Of a stretch of DNA of 42,500 nucleotides, positions 5,983-28,232 are shown one piece after another (position 1 is the first letter of the stretch; each line of letters starts with the position of its first letter). This DNA comes from Thermoleophilia bacterium. Its GTDB lineage: Bacteria; Actinomycetota; Thermoleophilia; Gaiellales; Gaiellaceae. Under the pieces are notes generated by a model. It saw only the letters and a program-made list of their open reading frames with translations. It was not told the DNA's origin and made no database searches. Made by a program: the position numbers and the translations under genes. Location: assembly GCA_025928515.1 (NCBI GenBank), contig JAICJI010000017.1, forward strand, positions 1 through 42,500. Reading direction: 5' to 3'.

Positions 5983-7122
5983 TCAGGGTTCGAGGTCGTA
6001 CGGGTACTTCGTGAGGTTTTCGGCGCCGCTCTCGGTCACGAGGACGATGTCCTCGAGCCGCACGCCGCCGTAGCCGGCGCGGTAGAGGCCGGGCTCCACC
6101 GTGACGACGTCGCCCGCGACGAGCTTCTTCTCTGCTGCGCGGCCGAGGCTCGGTTCCTCGTGCACCTCGAGGCCCACCCCGTGGCCGAGGCCGTGGAAGA
6201 AGCCGTCGCTGAGCGTCTCGCCGGGCTCTTTCGTCCGCTGCGTCGGCTCGCCGGCTGCCTCGAAGAGCTCGCACGTCCCGTCGAAGATGGCGCGGCAGTC
6301 GGCGCCGGCGCGGATCTCGGTGAGTGCACGGTCGAGTGCCTCCTTGCAGAGGCGGTGCCACTCGCGCACGTCGTCGGGCACCTCGCCCACGACGAACGTT
6401 CGGGTCATGTCGGTGTAGGCGGCCGAGCCGTTGTCGCGAGGGAAGATGTCGACGACGAGCGGCGTGTGCGGCCGGATCGGCCCCGAGCCCATGTCGTGCC
6501 CGACGGCTCCCTGCGCGCCCGGCGCGACGATGTACTCGTCGGCGGTCGTGTCGTGCGAGGCGAAGACGACGTTCAGGTCCGCCTTCACACGCTCGACGGT
6601 GAGCTGCTCTCCGTCGAGCAGGAGCTCGTCGCCCCGGATCTCGGCTCGCCGCAGGAGCTCGCGGCACGCGTCCATGGCCGCCTCGGCGGCGCTCTGCGCC
6701 TTGCGGATTCCCGCGACCTGCGCCTCGGTCTTGGCCCGGCGGCGATCGTCGAAGAGATCCTGGTCGACGCCGAGGTCGACTCCTTCGGCGCGCAGGCGGT
6801 CGGCGAGCCAGACGGGGAAGGTCTCGGGCACCGAAGCCCGCTTCACGCCGATGCTCTCGACCGCGCGGAGCGCGAGCTGCGCAGTCACTTCGCGCGAGCC
6901 GAGCCCCGAATCCATCAGCTCGTCGAAGCCGAGCTCCTCGCGAACGTGCACCTCGAACAGCCCGAGCTCCCGGATCCGGACGGCCTCCATCGAGCTCGTG
7001 AAGATGTGCCTGGTCCCGTTCTGCTCGGCGTAGAGGAACGGATCGGGCACGCCGAGCGGAACCGCGTGCCGCATGTCGGCGGAGCGCAACGAGTCGGCGT
7101 AGATGAGAACCCCGTCGGCCAA
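5983..7122 (-). CDS. M24-family metallopeptidase (Xaa-Pro aminopeptidase-like)
   Basis: About 379 residues from TTG 7122 (LADGVLIYADS); the frame stays open further upstream but that part is low-complexity and overlaps the divergent gene. The N-terminal creatinase-like domain is followed by a pita-bread fold with all five metal ligands: Asp in VVDIFPRD, Asp in YTDMTRTF, His in GLGHGVGLEVHEEP, Glu in VTVEPGLY and Glu in VRLEDIVLVTE. The family removes N-terminal residues ahead of proline using two metal ions. Substrate preference cannot be read. The start codon is the least certain part. Confidence 0.85.
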   Translation of the reverse strand: MADGVLIYADSLRSADMRHAVPLGVPDPFLYAEQNGTRHIFTSSMEAVRIRELGLFEVHVREELGFDELMDSGLGSREVTAQLALRAVESIGVKRASVPETFPVWLADRLRAEGVDLGVDQDLFDDRRRAKTEAQVAGIRKAQSAAEAAMDACRELLRRAEIRGDELLLDGEQLTVERVKADLNVVFASHDTTADEYIVAPGAQGAVGHDMGSGPIRPHTPLVVDIFPRDNGSAAYTDMTRTFVVGEVPDDVREWHRLCKEALDRALTEIRAGADCRAIFDGTCELFEAAGEPTQRTKEPGETLSDGFFHGLGHGVGLEVHEEPSLGRAAEKKLVAGDVVTVEPGLYRAGYGGVRLEDIVLVTESGAENLTKYPYDLEP

Positions 7123-7196
7123 AGCGCCTCGATCGTAGCGACGGGCACGCGGTTCCTCTTCCGCTTCAGTGGCCGAGAGGCGATACTCGCGGCTCG

Positions 7197-8624
7197 ATGG
7201 CGGCGATCGGCGAGAGAGACGATCCGGCGTTCCCGGTCGGAGCTGCGTGCCGGATCGATTCGCGCTCGCCGTGGCGCCAGATTGCCGAGATTCCGGTCGG
7301 TCTCGACCCCGAGGGAATCGCAATCGACAACGCACGGAGGCGCGCGTTCGTGGCGTGCTCGCGCAGCGACTTCGTCTCGGTCGTCGACCTCGAGACGCAC
7401 GAGGTCATCCGCGAGATCGCGACCGGCAACGAACCCATCGACATCGGGCTCGACGAGCAGACGGGGCGCATCTTCACTGCCGATGCGCACTCCGACCAGG
7501 TGACGATCATCGACTCGGCGACGCTGGAGGTCGAGACCGCCGTGCCGGTGGGCGGCTATCCATCCGGCCTCACGCATGTCCCCGACTTCCGCCGCCTCTA
7601 CGTCGGCAACTCGCTCGGCTCGACCATGAGCGTGATCGACCTGGACACGCTCGAGACGGTCGCGACGGTGGACGCGGAACCGGGTGCCGGGGCCATCGGC
7701 GTCGACCAGACGCGCAATCTCGTCGTGTGCGTCAACTTCGTCGCAGCTTCCGCGAATTTCTACGACGCCGAGACGTTCGAGGAAGTGGGCCGCCTCGAGC
7801 TCGGCATAGGGACGTGTGCGATCGGGATAGTCCCCGAGCGAGGCGAGGCGTTCATCGTCAACTCGATCGCCGGCACGGTGTCTCGCGTCGACCTCGACAA
7901 GATCGAGGTCGTGGAGGAGATCCGCACGGGCTCGGCTCCGGTCGGGCTCACCGTCCACCCCTCGCACGACCGGGTGTACGTCACGAACCGCGGAGCCGGC
8001 TCGGTGAGCGTGCTCGGGGTCGCGGACGGGGTCGAGTGGTCGCAGATCCCGGTCGGCGGCGGCCCCGGCGGCGTGGTCGTCGACCCGCACGACGGCCGGA
8101 TCCTCGTCGCCAACGCCGGCAGCCAGACGATGTCGATCGTCGAGGACCTGCTCGCGGGCCGGCCGCCGGCGCCGGTCGTCGAGGAGCCGAGCCCGTGGAT
8201 CGGCAACAAGCTGCCGGCCTTCGCCCTCGAGGATTACCGGTCGGGCGAGCGGCGGACGAACCACGACTGGGCCGAGAAGAAGTACATCCTCAACTTCTTT
8301 GCGTCCTGGTGAGGACCGTGCAACGCGGAGGCGCCGTTCCTCGAGGACGTGCGCGTTCGTGAGGAGTCCCGGTCGGGGCTCGAGATCGTCCTCGTCGACA
8401 TCTGGGAAGGGACGGAGCCCCGCCCCGAGGTCGAGCGCTTCTGCGAGATGTGGGGCATCAAGGGGCCGATCCTGCTCGACCCCGGCCTCGAGCTCGCTTC
8501 CGCGCTCGGCGTGCGCGGCGTGCCGACGAACGTCGTCGTGGACTCCGACGGGACGATCCGCGCCTTCGGAGCCGCCCGCCTCGACGAGCTCGAGCAGGCG
8601 ATCGACGACCTCTACGGCCGCTAG
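7197..8624 (+). CDS. Selenoprotein: YVTN beta-propeller fused to a TlpA/thioredoxin-like domain, Sec at residue 372 (WUGPC)
   Basis: Read through TGA 8310-8312, this is one 475-residue protein. Residues about 25-330 form a YVTN/YncE-type propeller with repeats such as SVVDLETHEVIREIATG and TIIDSATLEVETAVPVG. Residues about 335-475 form a thioredoxin-like domain: a beta strand KKYILNFFASW, then TGA, then GPCNAEAPFLEDV, a cis-Pro loop GVPTN and VVVDSDGTIRAFG. The TGA falls exactly where the first Cys of WCGPC belongs, and the second Cys (375) is intact, so Sec-x-x-Cys is the best reading. The normal stop is TAG 8622-8624. No signal peptide is visible, suggesting cytoplasmic thiol-disulfide redox work. 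The protein partner or substrate is unknown. A standard gene caller would split it into two pieces. Confidence 0.85.
8328..8342 (+). promoter_or_regulatory. Weak SECIS-like hairpin candidate after UGA 8310
   Basis: GAGG (8328-8331) pairs with CCTC (8339-8342) around loop CGCCGTT, which contains the GU that SelB favours. The stem starts 15 nt after the UGA. Four base pairs are weak, and other pairings (CGG/CCG at 8326-8336) compete. I list it only as the best candidate; bacterial SECIS elements vary and this gene's element is uncertain. Confidence 0.3.
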
Positions 8625-9490
8625 GCCAACGCCGCCAGCTCGCGGCCTTCGCGCTCGTTCCGGACGCCGACGATCGCACCGGTCACCGCCGGGTGGGAGA
8701 GCACGAAGTCGAGCGCGCCTCGCGTGACGCTGCCAGCGCCGCGGTCGCGTAGCTCCTCGCGCGTGTCTGCGAGGTCGAGCTCCGCGAACGGATGCGTGCG
8801 ACGAAAGTCGTCCTCGGCGAGGGCGTCGAGCGAGAAGTCGTCGGTGAGGGAGCCGCTCGCGAGCGGCGACCACACGATGACGCCGAGGCCGCGCTCCTGC
8901 GCGAATGGGAGCAACCGCTGCTCGTCGTCGCGGACGAGCGCCGAGTACTGGAACTGGAGGCCCGCGACCGGTCCCACGGCGAGCGCGCGCCCGACGAGCT
9001 CCGGCGGATGGTTCGAGAGCCCGCCGTGGCGCACTTTCCCCTCGGCGACGAGCTCGAGCAGCGTGCCCCAGGACTCCTCGATCGGCACGTTCCGATCGGG
9101 GTCGTGGAACTGGAGCAGGTCGATCCGCTCGCGACGTAGCCGGCGGAGGCTCGCGTCGACGTCGCGCCGGATCCCGCCTGGGCTGAGATCCATGTAGTCG
9201 TCCCCGTCGTCGCGCCGCCAGGTGCCGCACTTCGTGAAGACGAGCACGTCTTCACGGCCGGCGAGCGCGCGTCCGACTACCTCCTCCGCGTGACCCCAGC
9301 CGTAGAACGGCGCCGTGTCGATCCAGTCGACGCCGCCGTCGAGCGCCGCGTGGATCGCCCGGGTCGAATCGTCGTCGTCCTGCGGGCCCCAGTTGACCCA
9401 CCATTCGCCGGGGCGCGAGCCGATCGGCGCGGTGCCGAGGCCGACGCGCGAGATCTCCAGATCGCTCGGGCCGAAGCGGCGCCGTTCCAT
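8621..9490 (-). CDS. Aldo/keto reductase
   Basis: A 289-residue (beta/alpha)8 NAD(P)H-dependent oxidoreductase. Visible features: the N-terminal RRFGPSDLEISRVGLGTAPIG, the catalytic Asp-Tyr part DWIDTAPFYGWGHAEEVVGRAL, the lysine strand VLVFTKCGTW, the active-site His in LLQFHDPD, and the C-terminal cofactor region TGAIVGVRNEREGREL. The start ATG 9490 is preferred over GTG 9517 because the conserved family N-terminus begins just after it and CCGAGG precedes it. It resembles L-fucose/D-threo-aldose-type dehydrogenases, but substrate is not determined. It sits between the two thioredoxin-fold selenoprotein genes on the opposite strand; its stop overlaps the first one's stop in a shared CTAG. 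Confidence 0.88.
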   Translation of the reverse strand: MERRRFGPSDLEISRVGLGTAPIGSRPGEWWVNWGPQDDDDSTRAIHAALDGGVDWIDTAPFYGWGHAEEVVGRALAGREDVLVFTKCGTWRRDDGDDYMDLSPGGIRRDVDASLRRLRRERIDLLQFHDPDRNVPIEESWGTLLELVAEGKVRHGGLSNHPPELVGRALAVGPVAGLQFQYSALVRDDEQRLLPFAQERGLGVIVWSPLASGSLTDDFSLDALAEDDFRRTHPFAELDLADTREELRDRGAGSVTRGALDFVLSHPAVTGAIVGVRNEREGRELAALA

Positions 9491-9521
9491 AGCCTCGGTC
9501 AACGCGCGTACGCTCACGCCT

Positions 9522-10166
9522 ATGCCCGTCCTACGGCCCGAGGAGGAGGAGAAGGTTCGTGGGTGGTTCGCGGAGCTCGAGCGGCCCGTCGAGCTGCTTG
9601 TCGGGCTCGGACCCGAGGAGACGCCGCTCGCCGGCTCCGGAGACGTCGACTTCGGCGCGGAGATGGTTCGCGTCTGCGAAGGCCTCGCCGAGCTCGGCGA
9701 CCGCGTGAGCTGTCGCGTCGAGCAACAGCCGGACGGATTCCCGCGCTTCCCCGCGGTCGCGATCCGACCCGACGGTCGGGACGTGGGTGTCCGCTACGAC
9801 GGGCTGCCGTGGGGCTACGAGCTCGGCTCCCTCGTCGGCGCGGTCGTCGAGGCCGGTCGCTCCGAGCCGTCGCTGCGCCCCGAGTCGATCGCGGCGCTCG
9901 GCGAGCTCGAGCGCGAGCTCGCGCTCGACGTCTTCGTCACGCCGACTTGACCGCACTGCCCGCCGGCCGTGTTGCTGGCGTACCGTTGCGCCCTCGCCTC
10001 CGAGCGTGTGACCGCGACTGCGATCGAGGCGAACGAGTTCCCGCAGCTCTCGCAGGAGCTCGGCGTGTGGGCGGTGCCGCGGGTCGTCGTCGACGGCGAG
10101 CCACGGTGGGACGGCGCGGTGCCCGAGCCGGAGTTTCTCCGCCGGATCCTGGCTCCTGCCGCCTAG
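9522..10166 (+). CDS. Selenoprotein: PDO/glutaredoxin-like protein with Sec at residue 143 (UPHC)
   Basis: Read through TGA 9948-9950, this is a 214-residue protein. The N-terminal half resembles the first thioredoxin unit of archaeal-type protein disulfide oxidoreductases (PAVAIRPDGRDVGVRYDGLPWGYELGSLV matches the PDO pattern in pieces) but lacks a CxxC. The C-terminal unit has the strand LDVFVTPT, then TGA, then PHCPPAVLLAYRCAL, followed by a cis-Pro loop VWAVPRVVVDGE. Homologous PDOs have CPYC or CPHC here, so TGA replaces the first active-site Cys and Cys146 remains. A strong GU-loop hairpin follows the UGA. The stop TAG overlaps the convergent small gene in CTAG. The role is probably thiol-disulfide exchange or peroxide/disulfide reduction; its electron donor is unknown. 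No strong ribosome-binding site precedes ATG 9522. Confidence 0.87.
9961..9980 (+). promoter_or_regulatory. SECIS hairpin of the PDO-like selenoprotein
   Basis: CGCCGGC (9961-9967) pairs with GCTGGCG (9974-9980) with one G-U pair, around loop CGTGTT. The stem begins 10 nt after UGA 9948-9950. Spacing, stem length and a GU in the apical loop match the bacterial SECIS pattern known from E. coli fdhF and seen again in fdhA at 25547. Confidence 0.75.
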
Positions 10167-24965: not shown

Positions 24966-27900
24966 ATGGCACTCGCGAAGCTCCTCGACTCCTGGCCCGC
25001 ATTGCGGCAACTGCGGGAGGGAGATCCGCTGGGCCTCGGCAAGGCGGTGCAGTCGCCGCGGTCGAAGAAGCTCGTGCCCCGCATCGACGAGGCCGACCAC
25101 GTCGTCGAGTCGGTCTGTCCCTACTGCGCGGTGGGTTGCGGCCAGCTCGTCTACGTCAAGGACGGCGACGTCACCCACATCGAGGGCGATCCCGCGTCCC
25201 CGATCTCACGCGGCCGCCTCTGCCCCAAGGGCCAGGCCTCGAAGAGCCTCGTGCAAAGCCCCTTGCGTGAGTACAAGGTGAAGTACCGCCGCCCGTACGG
25301 CACTCGGTGGGAGGAGCTCTCGCTCGACGAGGCGATGGAGATGATCGCCGAGCGGGTCATCCGCACCCGCGCCGAGACGTGGCGGAAGCGGACCGATGGC
25401 GGCGCGCCCGCGAACCGCACGATGGCGATCGGCAACCTCGGCGGCGCGACGCTCGACAACGAGGAGAACTACCTCATCAAGAAGCTGATGACGGGCCTCG
25501 GGATCGTCCAGGTCGAGAACCAGGCCCGCATATGACACAGCTCCACGGTGCCCGGTCTGGGCACCTCGTTCGGACGAGGCGGGGCCACGACGTTCCAGCA
25601 GGACCTGCAGAACTCCGACTGCATCGTGATCATGGGCTCGAACATGGCCGAGAACCACCCGGTGGGGTTCCAGTGGGTGATGGAGGCCAGGGAGCGCGGG
25701 GCGAAGGTGATCCACGTCGACCCGCGGTTCACGCGCACGAGCGCGATGGCGACGAAGCACGTCGGCATCCGCGCCGGTAGCGACATCGCCTTCCTCGGCG
25801 GCATCGCCAACTACATCCTCGAGCACGACCTCTACTTCCGGGAGTACGTCGCGAAGTACACGAACGCGCCCGTGATCATCGACGAGCGGTTCGTCGACAC
25901 CGAGGACGCCGACGGGCTCTTCTCCGGCTGGGATCCCGAGGCAGGCCGCTACGACATCGAGTCGTGGCGCTACGAGGGGATGGAGGTGCACGGCGCGGCC
26001 GGGCAGCGCGGCGAGGGCTTCGAGCCGCGCGGCGAGCAGTCGGGCCACGGCGCCGCAGGCGGCGGGCTGCATCACGGCGAGCCGCCGGTGGAGGATCCGG
26101 AGCTCGAGCATCCGCGCTGCGTCCTCCAGATCCTCAAGCGCCACTACCGCCGCTACACGCCCGAGTTCGTGGCCGAGACGTGCGGCTGCTCGGTCGAGGA
26201 CTTCGTCGAGGTCTGTCAAACGCTCGTCGAGAACTCCGGGCGCGAGCGGACGAGCGCCTTCTGCTACGCGGTCGGCTGGACCCAGCACACGACAGGCGTC
26301 CAGACGATCCGCTCGGCTGCGATCGTCCAGCAGCTGCTCGGCAACATCGGCCGGCCCGGCGGCGGGATCATGGCCCTCCGCGGCCACGCCTCGATCCAGG
26401 GCTCGACGGACATCCCGACGCTCTTCAACATCCTGCCCGGCTACCTGCCGATGCCCCACACGCTGAGCTACTCGAAGCTCGAGAACTTCATCGACGCGAA
26501 CACGTCGCCGACGGGCTGGTGGGGGAACTTCGAGGCGTACTGGGTCAGTCTCATGAAGGCGTACTTCGGCGAGCACGCGACCGTGGAGAACGACTGGCTT
26601 TTCGATCTGCTGCCGCGGATCGACAGCGACAACTCCGCCTATTTCACGGTCCAGCAGATGCTCGCAGGGAACGTGAAGGGCTACATCATCGCCGGTGAGA
26701 ATCCCGCGGTCGGCCATGCCAACGGCAAGGCGCACCGGCTCGGCCTCGCGAAGCTCGACTGGCTCGTCGTGCGCGACATCGTCGAGATCGAGTCCGCCTC
26801 GTTCTGGTACGACAGCCCCGAGATCGAGTCGGGAGAGCTCGAGACGGAGGCGATCGCGACCGAGGTCTTCTTCCTCCCGGCCGCGACGCACACCGAGAAG
26901 GACGGCTCGTTCACGAACACGCAGCGGCTGCTGCAGTGGCACTGGCAAGCGGTCGAGCCGAAGGAGGACTGCCGCTCGGAGCTCTGGTTCTACTTCCACC
27001 TCGGCCGCCTGATCAAGCAGAAGCTCGAGGACTCGGAGGAGGAGCGCGACACGTTGATCAAGGCGCTCCGCTGGGAGTACCCGACCCACTCCCAGATCCA
27101 GGAGCCCGCCGCCGAGGCCGTACTGCAGGAGGTCAACGGCTGGGAGATCGAGAGCGGGAAGTTCCTCTCCGGCTATCCGGAGCTGAAGGACGACGGCTCG
27201 ACGCTCTGCGGCTGCTGGATCTACTCCGGGTGCTTCACGGACGGGGTCAACCAGACTGCGCGCAAGAAGCCGCACTGGGAGCAGGAGAGCTACGTCGCGC
27301 CCGAGTGGGCGTGGGCGTGGCCGGCGAACCGGCGGATCATCTACAACCGCGCCTCGGCCGATCCCGACGGGAACCCGTGGTCCGAGCGCAAGCGCTACGT
27401 CTGGTGGGACGGCGACGAGGGCAAGTGGACCGGCCTCGACGTGCCCGACTTCAAGGAGGACAAGGAGCCCGGCTATGTCCCGCCGGAAGGCTCCGGAGCG
27501 GAGGACGCCATCGCGGGCGACCACCCGTTCATCATGCAGGCCGACGGGCGCGCCTGGCTCTACGTCGCCCAGGGCCTCGAAGACGGCCCGCTCCCGACGC
27601 ACTACGAGCCGCACGAGTCTCCCTTCGACAACCCGCTCTACTCGCAGCGCGCCAACCCGCGCCGGCAGCAGAACAAGGACCTCGCGGAGGATCCGTACAA
27701 CCCGGTGGCCGACGAGCCCGGCTCGGAGATCTATCCCTACGTCGTCACGACGTACCGGCTCACCGAGCACCACACCGCCGGCGGGATGACGCGCACGGTG
27801 CCGTACCTCGCCGAGCTGCAGCCGGAGATGTTCTGCGAGGTCCATCCGGACCTCGCCCGGGAGGTAGGGCTCGAGCACGGCGGCTGGGCGACGATCTACA

Positions 27901-28232
27901 CCTCGCGCTCGGCCATCGAGGCGCGCGTCCTCGTCACCGACCGCATCCGGCCGCTCCGGATGAACGGCCGCGAGGTGCACCAGGTCGGGCTGCCGTATCA
28001 CTGGGGCGGGCGCGGCCTCGTCACCGGCGACTCCGCGAACGACCTCGCGCACATGGCGCTCGACCCGAACGTGCACATCCAAGAGGTGAAGGCATTCACG
28101 TGCGGGATCCGCCCTGGCCGCCGCCCGCGCGGCCCGGAGCTGCCGCGCTTCGTGGCCGAACTGCGCGACCAGGCTCATTCGCGGCGTGAGCAGGACCCAC
28201 GGATCGAGCCCGAGGAAGCGAGGAAGACGTGA
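24966..28232 (+). CDS. fdhA: Formate dehydrogenase catalytic subunit, selenocysteine at residue 190
   Basis: A 1088-residue molybdenum/tungsten bis-MGD enzyme read through TGA 25533-25535. The N-terminal [4Fe-4S] site has Cys51, 54, 58 and 86 (CPYCAVGCG and RLCPKG). The active site reads VENQARI-U-HSSTVPGLGTSFGRGG, the standard place for Sec or Cys in FdhA. Downstream are SNMAENHPVGFQWV, VDPRFTRTSAMA, IGRPGGGIMALRGHASIQGS and the C-terminal MopB domain (YHWGGRGLVTGDSANDLAH). No twin-arginine signal is seen, so the catalytic side is probably cytoplasmic. It oxidises formate to CO2, or reduces CO2. It is coupled to fdhB by GTGA. A gene caller ignoring Sec would split it at 25535. Confidence 0.96.
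25547..25565 (+). promoter_or_regulatory. SECIS hairpin of fdhA
   Basis: GGTGCCC (25547-25553) and GGGCACC (25559-25565) form a perfect 7-bp stem with loop GGTCT. The loop matches the GGUCU of the E. coli fdhF SECIS that SelB binds. The stem starts 11 nt after UGA 25533-25535. Confidence 0.9.

Follow-up and report, generated by a model that had tools for sequence, protein, structure and literature searches.

The locus and its reading frame

The window, a 42,500-nucleotide stretch of DNA, contains the following features.

9522-10166, plus strand: gene for a predicted Sec-containing protein resembling protein disulfide oxidoreductases (PDOs) and the AhpF N-terminal domain (NTD); 214 aa when read through TGA, stop TAG 10164-10166
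9588-9695, plus strand: N-terminal thioredoxin-like unit of that protein, first strand through first helix (residues 23-58), the place of the CxxC in sampled PDOs of the phylum; no CxxC in this protein
9948-9950, plus strand: putative UGA selenocysteine codon, residue 143 of the UPHC motif; TGA in 18/18 homologues, Cys in other members
9961-9980, plus strand: predicted bSECIS hairpin, stem CGCCGGC/GCTGGCG, loop CGTGTT (rules in PMC13188914 and comparison across genomes)
7197-8624, plus strand: upstream neighbour, a predicted selenoprotein with a YVTN beta-propeller and a TlpA/redoxin part, FFASW-U-GPC, TGA 8310-8312
8621-9517, minus strand: aldo/keto reductase gene that separates the two selenoprotein genes, both in the window and in G093
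24966-28232, plus strand: predicted formate-dehydrogenase-alpha-like selenoprotein, IUHSS at the Sec site, TGA 25533-25535

The frame at 9522-10166 contains a single in-frame TGA and is then open up to the TAG. In the read-through product this codon lies in the context LDVFVTPT-U-PHCPPAVLL, at the first Cys position of the C-terminal active site (VTPT-U-PHC). The whole 214-aa protein is matched by TIGR02187 (PDO_seleno_TRX, NCBIfam; E 1.3e-44), with a score of 152 bits that falls below the curated membership cut-off of 185 bits; clade mates scored 139-143 bits. It is also matched by the NCBIfam AhpF model (E 1.2e-19), and Pfam Thioredoxin_3 matches its C-terminal unit.

Conservation across the UGA codon

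A survey of 103 genomes of the same GTDB family yielded 17 full-length homologues besides the window's own, and the codon for U143 is TGA in all 18. A search of the same GTDB family and order turned up no Cys form of the PDO-like protein. In an alignment of 17 sequences VTPT-U-PHCPPAVLLA is invariant, and so, downstream of the TGA, are V182, V185-P186 (the cis-proline region), V189, G198, E202 and F205. Because residues on the far side of the TGA are invariant, translation must go on past it. Other families of the phylum gave 13 homologues, ten with TGA and three with Cys at the site, the latter as CPYC (L067) or CPNC (L076, L077). In several lineages an in-frame UGA is flanked on both sides by conserved coding sequence, the pattern by which a selenoprotein is recognised.

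An earlier sequence-only reading of the window had put Sec in place of the first Cys in a CPHC motif and proposed a comparison with Cys-carrying relatives. The in-frame, universally retained TGA and the existence of CPYC and CPNC forms in the phylum both bear it out. It had also held that relatives ending at the same position would speak against Sec; the outcome here is ambiguous, as the relatives do have TGA, yet their frame is conserved well beyond it. These sequence comparisons confirm the observation of an in-frame TGA at 9948-9950, which is very probably a genuine selenocysteine codon. With a Sec site invariant in 18 genomes and Cys forms elsewhere in the phylum, the protein makes a clean test case for the question of why Sec is retained in preference to Cys.

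The bSECIS hairpin

After a 10-nt spacer (9951-9960) there follows a 7-bp stem (9961-9967/9974-9980) with one G-U pair, closed by a 6-nt loop, CGTGTT, that has G at loop position 2 and U next. The distance from UGA to loop is 17 nt and the MFE of the hairpin is -11.4 kcal/mol. These values fit the bSECIS rules published in PMC13188914: a loop of 3-9 nt with G in the first two positions, a stem of 4-16 bp, a distance of 16-37 nt from the UGA and an MFE <= -7.5. Of the 725 TGAs in the window, 25 reached an equal hairpin score, and 4.1% of recodings that keep the peptide but change its codons synonymously did so too; taken alone, the hairpin is therefore no more than suggestive. The folding energy of the 48-nt hairpin stretch is ordinary (z -0.68) and was therefore left out as evidence.

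Among the 18 genomes, mean pairwise codon identity is 0.94 over the seven codons of the hairpin (+4 to +10) against 0.58 over 42 other conserved degenerate codons, a difference (Mann-Whitney p = 9e-5) that is indicative only because the 18 rows are related. In other actinobacterial families the stem sequence differs but pairing is kept (GCGCUGU-CGUG-ACAGCGC, GGGCGGU-CGUG-ACCGCCC and CGCCGU-CGUG-ACGGCG), and the loop sits 3 nt further from the UGA than in the window's clade. The hairpin goes beyond chance because the TGA is kept throughout the family, the synonymous sites are near-frozen and pairing survives changes of sequence. A 7-bp hairpin beginning 10 nt after the UGA, with GU in its loop, had been described as clear; the geometry stood, and the word "clear" did not, statistically, for the hairpin alone. 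It is the comparative evidence, rather than the isolated hairpin, that decides for Sec recoding.

Selenocysteine machinery

The window's source genome, a 79%-complete assembly, has a tRNA-Sec(UCA) gene (Rfam 59.2 bits, over the cut-off; ARAGORN agrees) together with selA (517.6 bits), selB (328 bits) and selD (322.3 bits), each of which exceeds its cut-off. The selA, selB and tRNA-Sec genes lie within about 9 kb on one strand (L008, G000:C41:62000-78609), and selD is on another contig. Among the 18 PDO genomes selA was not found in four (G091, G093, G043 and G047), all 71-88% complete, and was present in all five other PDO genomes that are at least 90% complete. An Rfam scan of the window returned no match, and no tRNA genes were found within it.

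Predicted fold and the single redox centre

An AlphaFold2 model built from seven close sequences reached a pLDDT of 88 and a pTM of 0.88; the other four models were lower (38-69). In the predicted model the whole chain forms two fused thioredoxin folds, as in PDOs and the AhpF NTD, and structural matches (Z 27-29) span about 200 residues, with Z values of 28.8 for A. aeolicus PDO, 27.9 for P. furiosus PDO and about 27 for the AhpF NTD. In the alignment with P. furiosus PDO, VFVTPTCPYCP stands opposite VFVTPTUPHCP. The predicted double fold, the structural matches to PDOs and the TIGR02187 match uphold the proposal of a PDO-type protein.

The N-terminal unit is devoid of CxxC in 18/18 family homologues. 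This leaves the Sec couple as the one redox centre of CxxC type, in agreement with the earlier claim of a sole centre. By contrast, all 13 sampled Sec/Cys PDOs from other families of the phylum, each over the TIGR02187 cut-off, keep an N-terminal motif (CETC, CEYC, CEFC, CISC, CWYC or CHEC). The archaeal type of two-site PDO, with CxxC in both thioredoxin units, is not what we find here; the N-terminal CxxC is also missing in three sampled AhpF proteins. For the sequences compared, the view holds that the soil-actinobacterial branch lost the second active site usual in PDOs and is left with selenium in its only redox centre. The protein would then be a naturally pared-down PDO with one Sec centre, in a soil actinobacterial lineage with Sec in disulfide chemistry.

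Alternative explanations

A standard gene finder would close the ORF at TGA 9948-9950, and if the codon were a true stop, the product would be a truncated protein of 142 residues, or the locus would be a pseudogene or an assembly error. We regard this as highly improbable, given that 18 separately assembled genomes have the same TGA codon, that the active site and cis-Pro region downstream are fully conserved, that the genome has full Sec machinery and that a protein cut short here would have no redox site left. Sequencing or assembly error in particular was rejected on the TGA count, the downstream conservation and the machinery. A genome-wide code change, by which TGA would specify another amino acid, has nothing in its favour beyond the read-through itself. 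The dedicated tRNA-Sec(UCA), SelA, SelB and SelD contradict it, as does the placement of the three window TGAs examined, each where a catalytic Cys or Sec belongs (UPHC, UGPC and the Sec site of the formate dehydrogenase), and a code change was rejected on these grounds as having next to no probability.

Another explanation accepts Sec and concerns the identity of the protein, which might be a detached AhpF NTD, not a PDO, with electron donation to an AhpC-type peroxiredoxin as its sole role. Such an origin would fit the missing N-terminal CxxC, shared with the sampled AhpF proteins, the about equal match to AhpF-NTD structures (Z 27 vs 28 for PDO) and the NCBIfam AhpF match (1.2e-19). However, TIGR02187 fits far better (1.3e-44), and in a midpoint-rooted tree the clade groups with standalone Sec/Cys PDOs, and a branch of length 2.29 (support 100/100) divides it from the AhpF NTDs sampled; the clade's own branch is only moderately supported (56/77). 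A detached AhpF NTD is thus unlikely, and we favour a standalone Sec-containing oxidoreductase of PDO type.

Neighbouring selenoprotein genes

The TGA of the propeller-TlpA gene is kept in 11/11 full-length homologues (the window's own included), all of the same genus. In five relatives (G087, G088, G090, G094 and G095) this gene immediately precedes the PDO gene on the same strand, the two being at most about 20 nt apart; the PDO gene directly behind a second selenoprotein gene is new here. The linkage hints at a functional pair. As it is limited to part of one genus, the partnership is not general. The adjoining gene points to a possible Sec-to-Sec pathway for electrons, and we tentatively entertain, while rather doubting, a dedicated two-selenoprotein relay in one genus, with a single Sec-x-x-Cys centre in each protein. 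The propeller plus TlpA arrangement was not found among the selenoprotein families in the portion of the table of the review PMC13188914 that was covered, and none of the papers searched brings YVTN together with both selenoprotein and selenocysteine.

With the formate dehydrogenase counted in, the window has three selenoprotein genes. Automatic annotation in which every TGA closes an ORF would cut the genes at 9522-10166 and 7197-8624 short, losing both active sites.

An M24-family peptidase gene (5983-7335, minus strand) adjoins the propeller-TlpA gene in the window, and an M24-family peptidase gene stands divergently beside the PDO gene in G086, G092, G099 and G015. A PDO C-terminal fragment in G094 (L038, G094:C48:31785-31979, minus strand; KPVVLLAYRC...), 86% identical and without the UPHC motif, lies about 1.3 kb from the intact PDO copy and looks like a partial duplication.

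Proposed mechanism

Comparative computation established, as set out above, the recoding signal, the Sec machinery, the predicted fold, the lone active site and the linkage of the genes. From these we propose that 9522-10166 very probably encodes a cytosolic Sec thiol-disulfide oxidoreductase, with a hairpin-directed UGA and a lone U143/C146 couple, that works as an AhpF-NTD-like electron shuttle; its cytosolic location, electron donor, substrates and partner are what we infer. With the hairpin at 9961-9980 as the signal, SelB and Sec-tRNA(Sec) would insert selenocysteine at UGA 9948-9950. The first thioredoxin fold, its CxxC lost, would be structural, and the second would hold the only redox couple, the selenenylsulfide/selenolthiol U143-P-H-C146, with electrons most likely shuttled as in the AhpF N-terminal domain. 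The U-x-x-C site may be reduced by a flavoprotein of thioredoxin-reductase type; a thioredoxin reductase over the cut-off in the window's genome is a possible electron source. Electrons would then pass to protein disulfides or peroxidatic partners, among which the TlpA-like selenoprotein encoded alongside the PDO gene is plausible.

Comparison with known systems

For Carboxydothermus and Symbiobacterium, Sec forms are on record under the name "homolog of AhpF, amino-terminal domain" (PMC1794560), and Table 1 of PMC13188914 has an entry "homolog of AhpF N-terminal domain (Grx-like domain protein)" for a selenoprotein family with UxxC, which is TIGR02187. The window protein has in common with these selenoproteins the double thioredoxin fold and a single Sec at the first position of UxxC. 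It differs from the TIGR02187 family in that its branch scores below the cut-off (152 vs 185 bits) and is without the N-terminal CxxC. The protein would accordingly be of modest novelty, a divergent branch, on sequence grounds, of an already published selenoprotein, the term variant being judged within this phylum only.

The archaeal and Aquifex PDOs (1a8l, 1j08, 2ayt and 2ywm) share the fold over the full chain (Z about 28; 26-31% identity), and 1a8l and 1j08 have a similar active-site context, VTPTCPYCP; in contrast to these PDOs, the window protein has Sec for Cys and no N-terminal CxxC. The AhpF NTD (1zyn, 5h29 and 6il7) likewise consists of two thioredoxin folds of which the second alone is redox-active, whereas the window protein is standalone, has no flavin domain and carries a CPHC-type site with Sec where sampled actinobacterial AhpF has CQNC.
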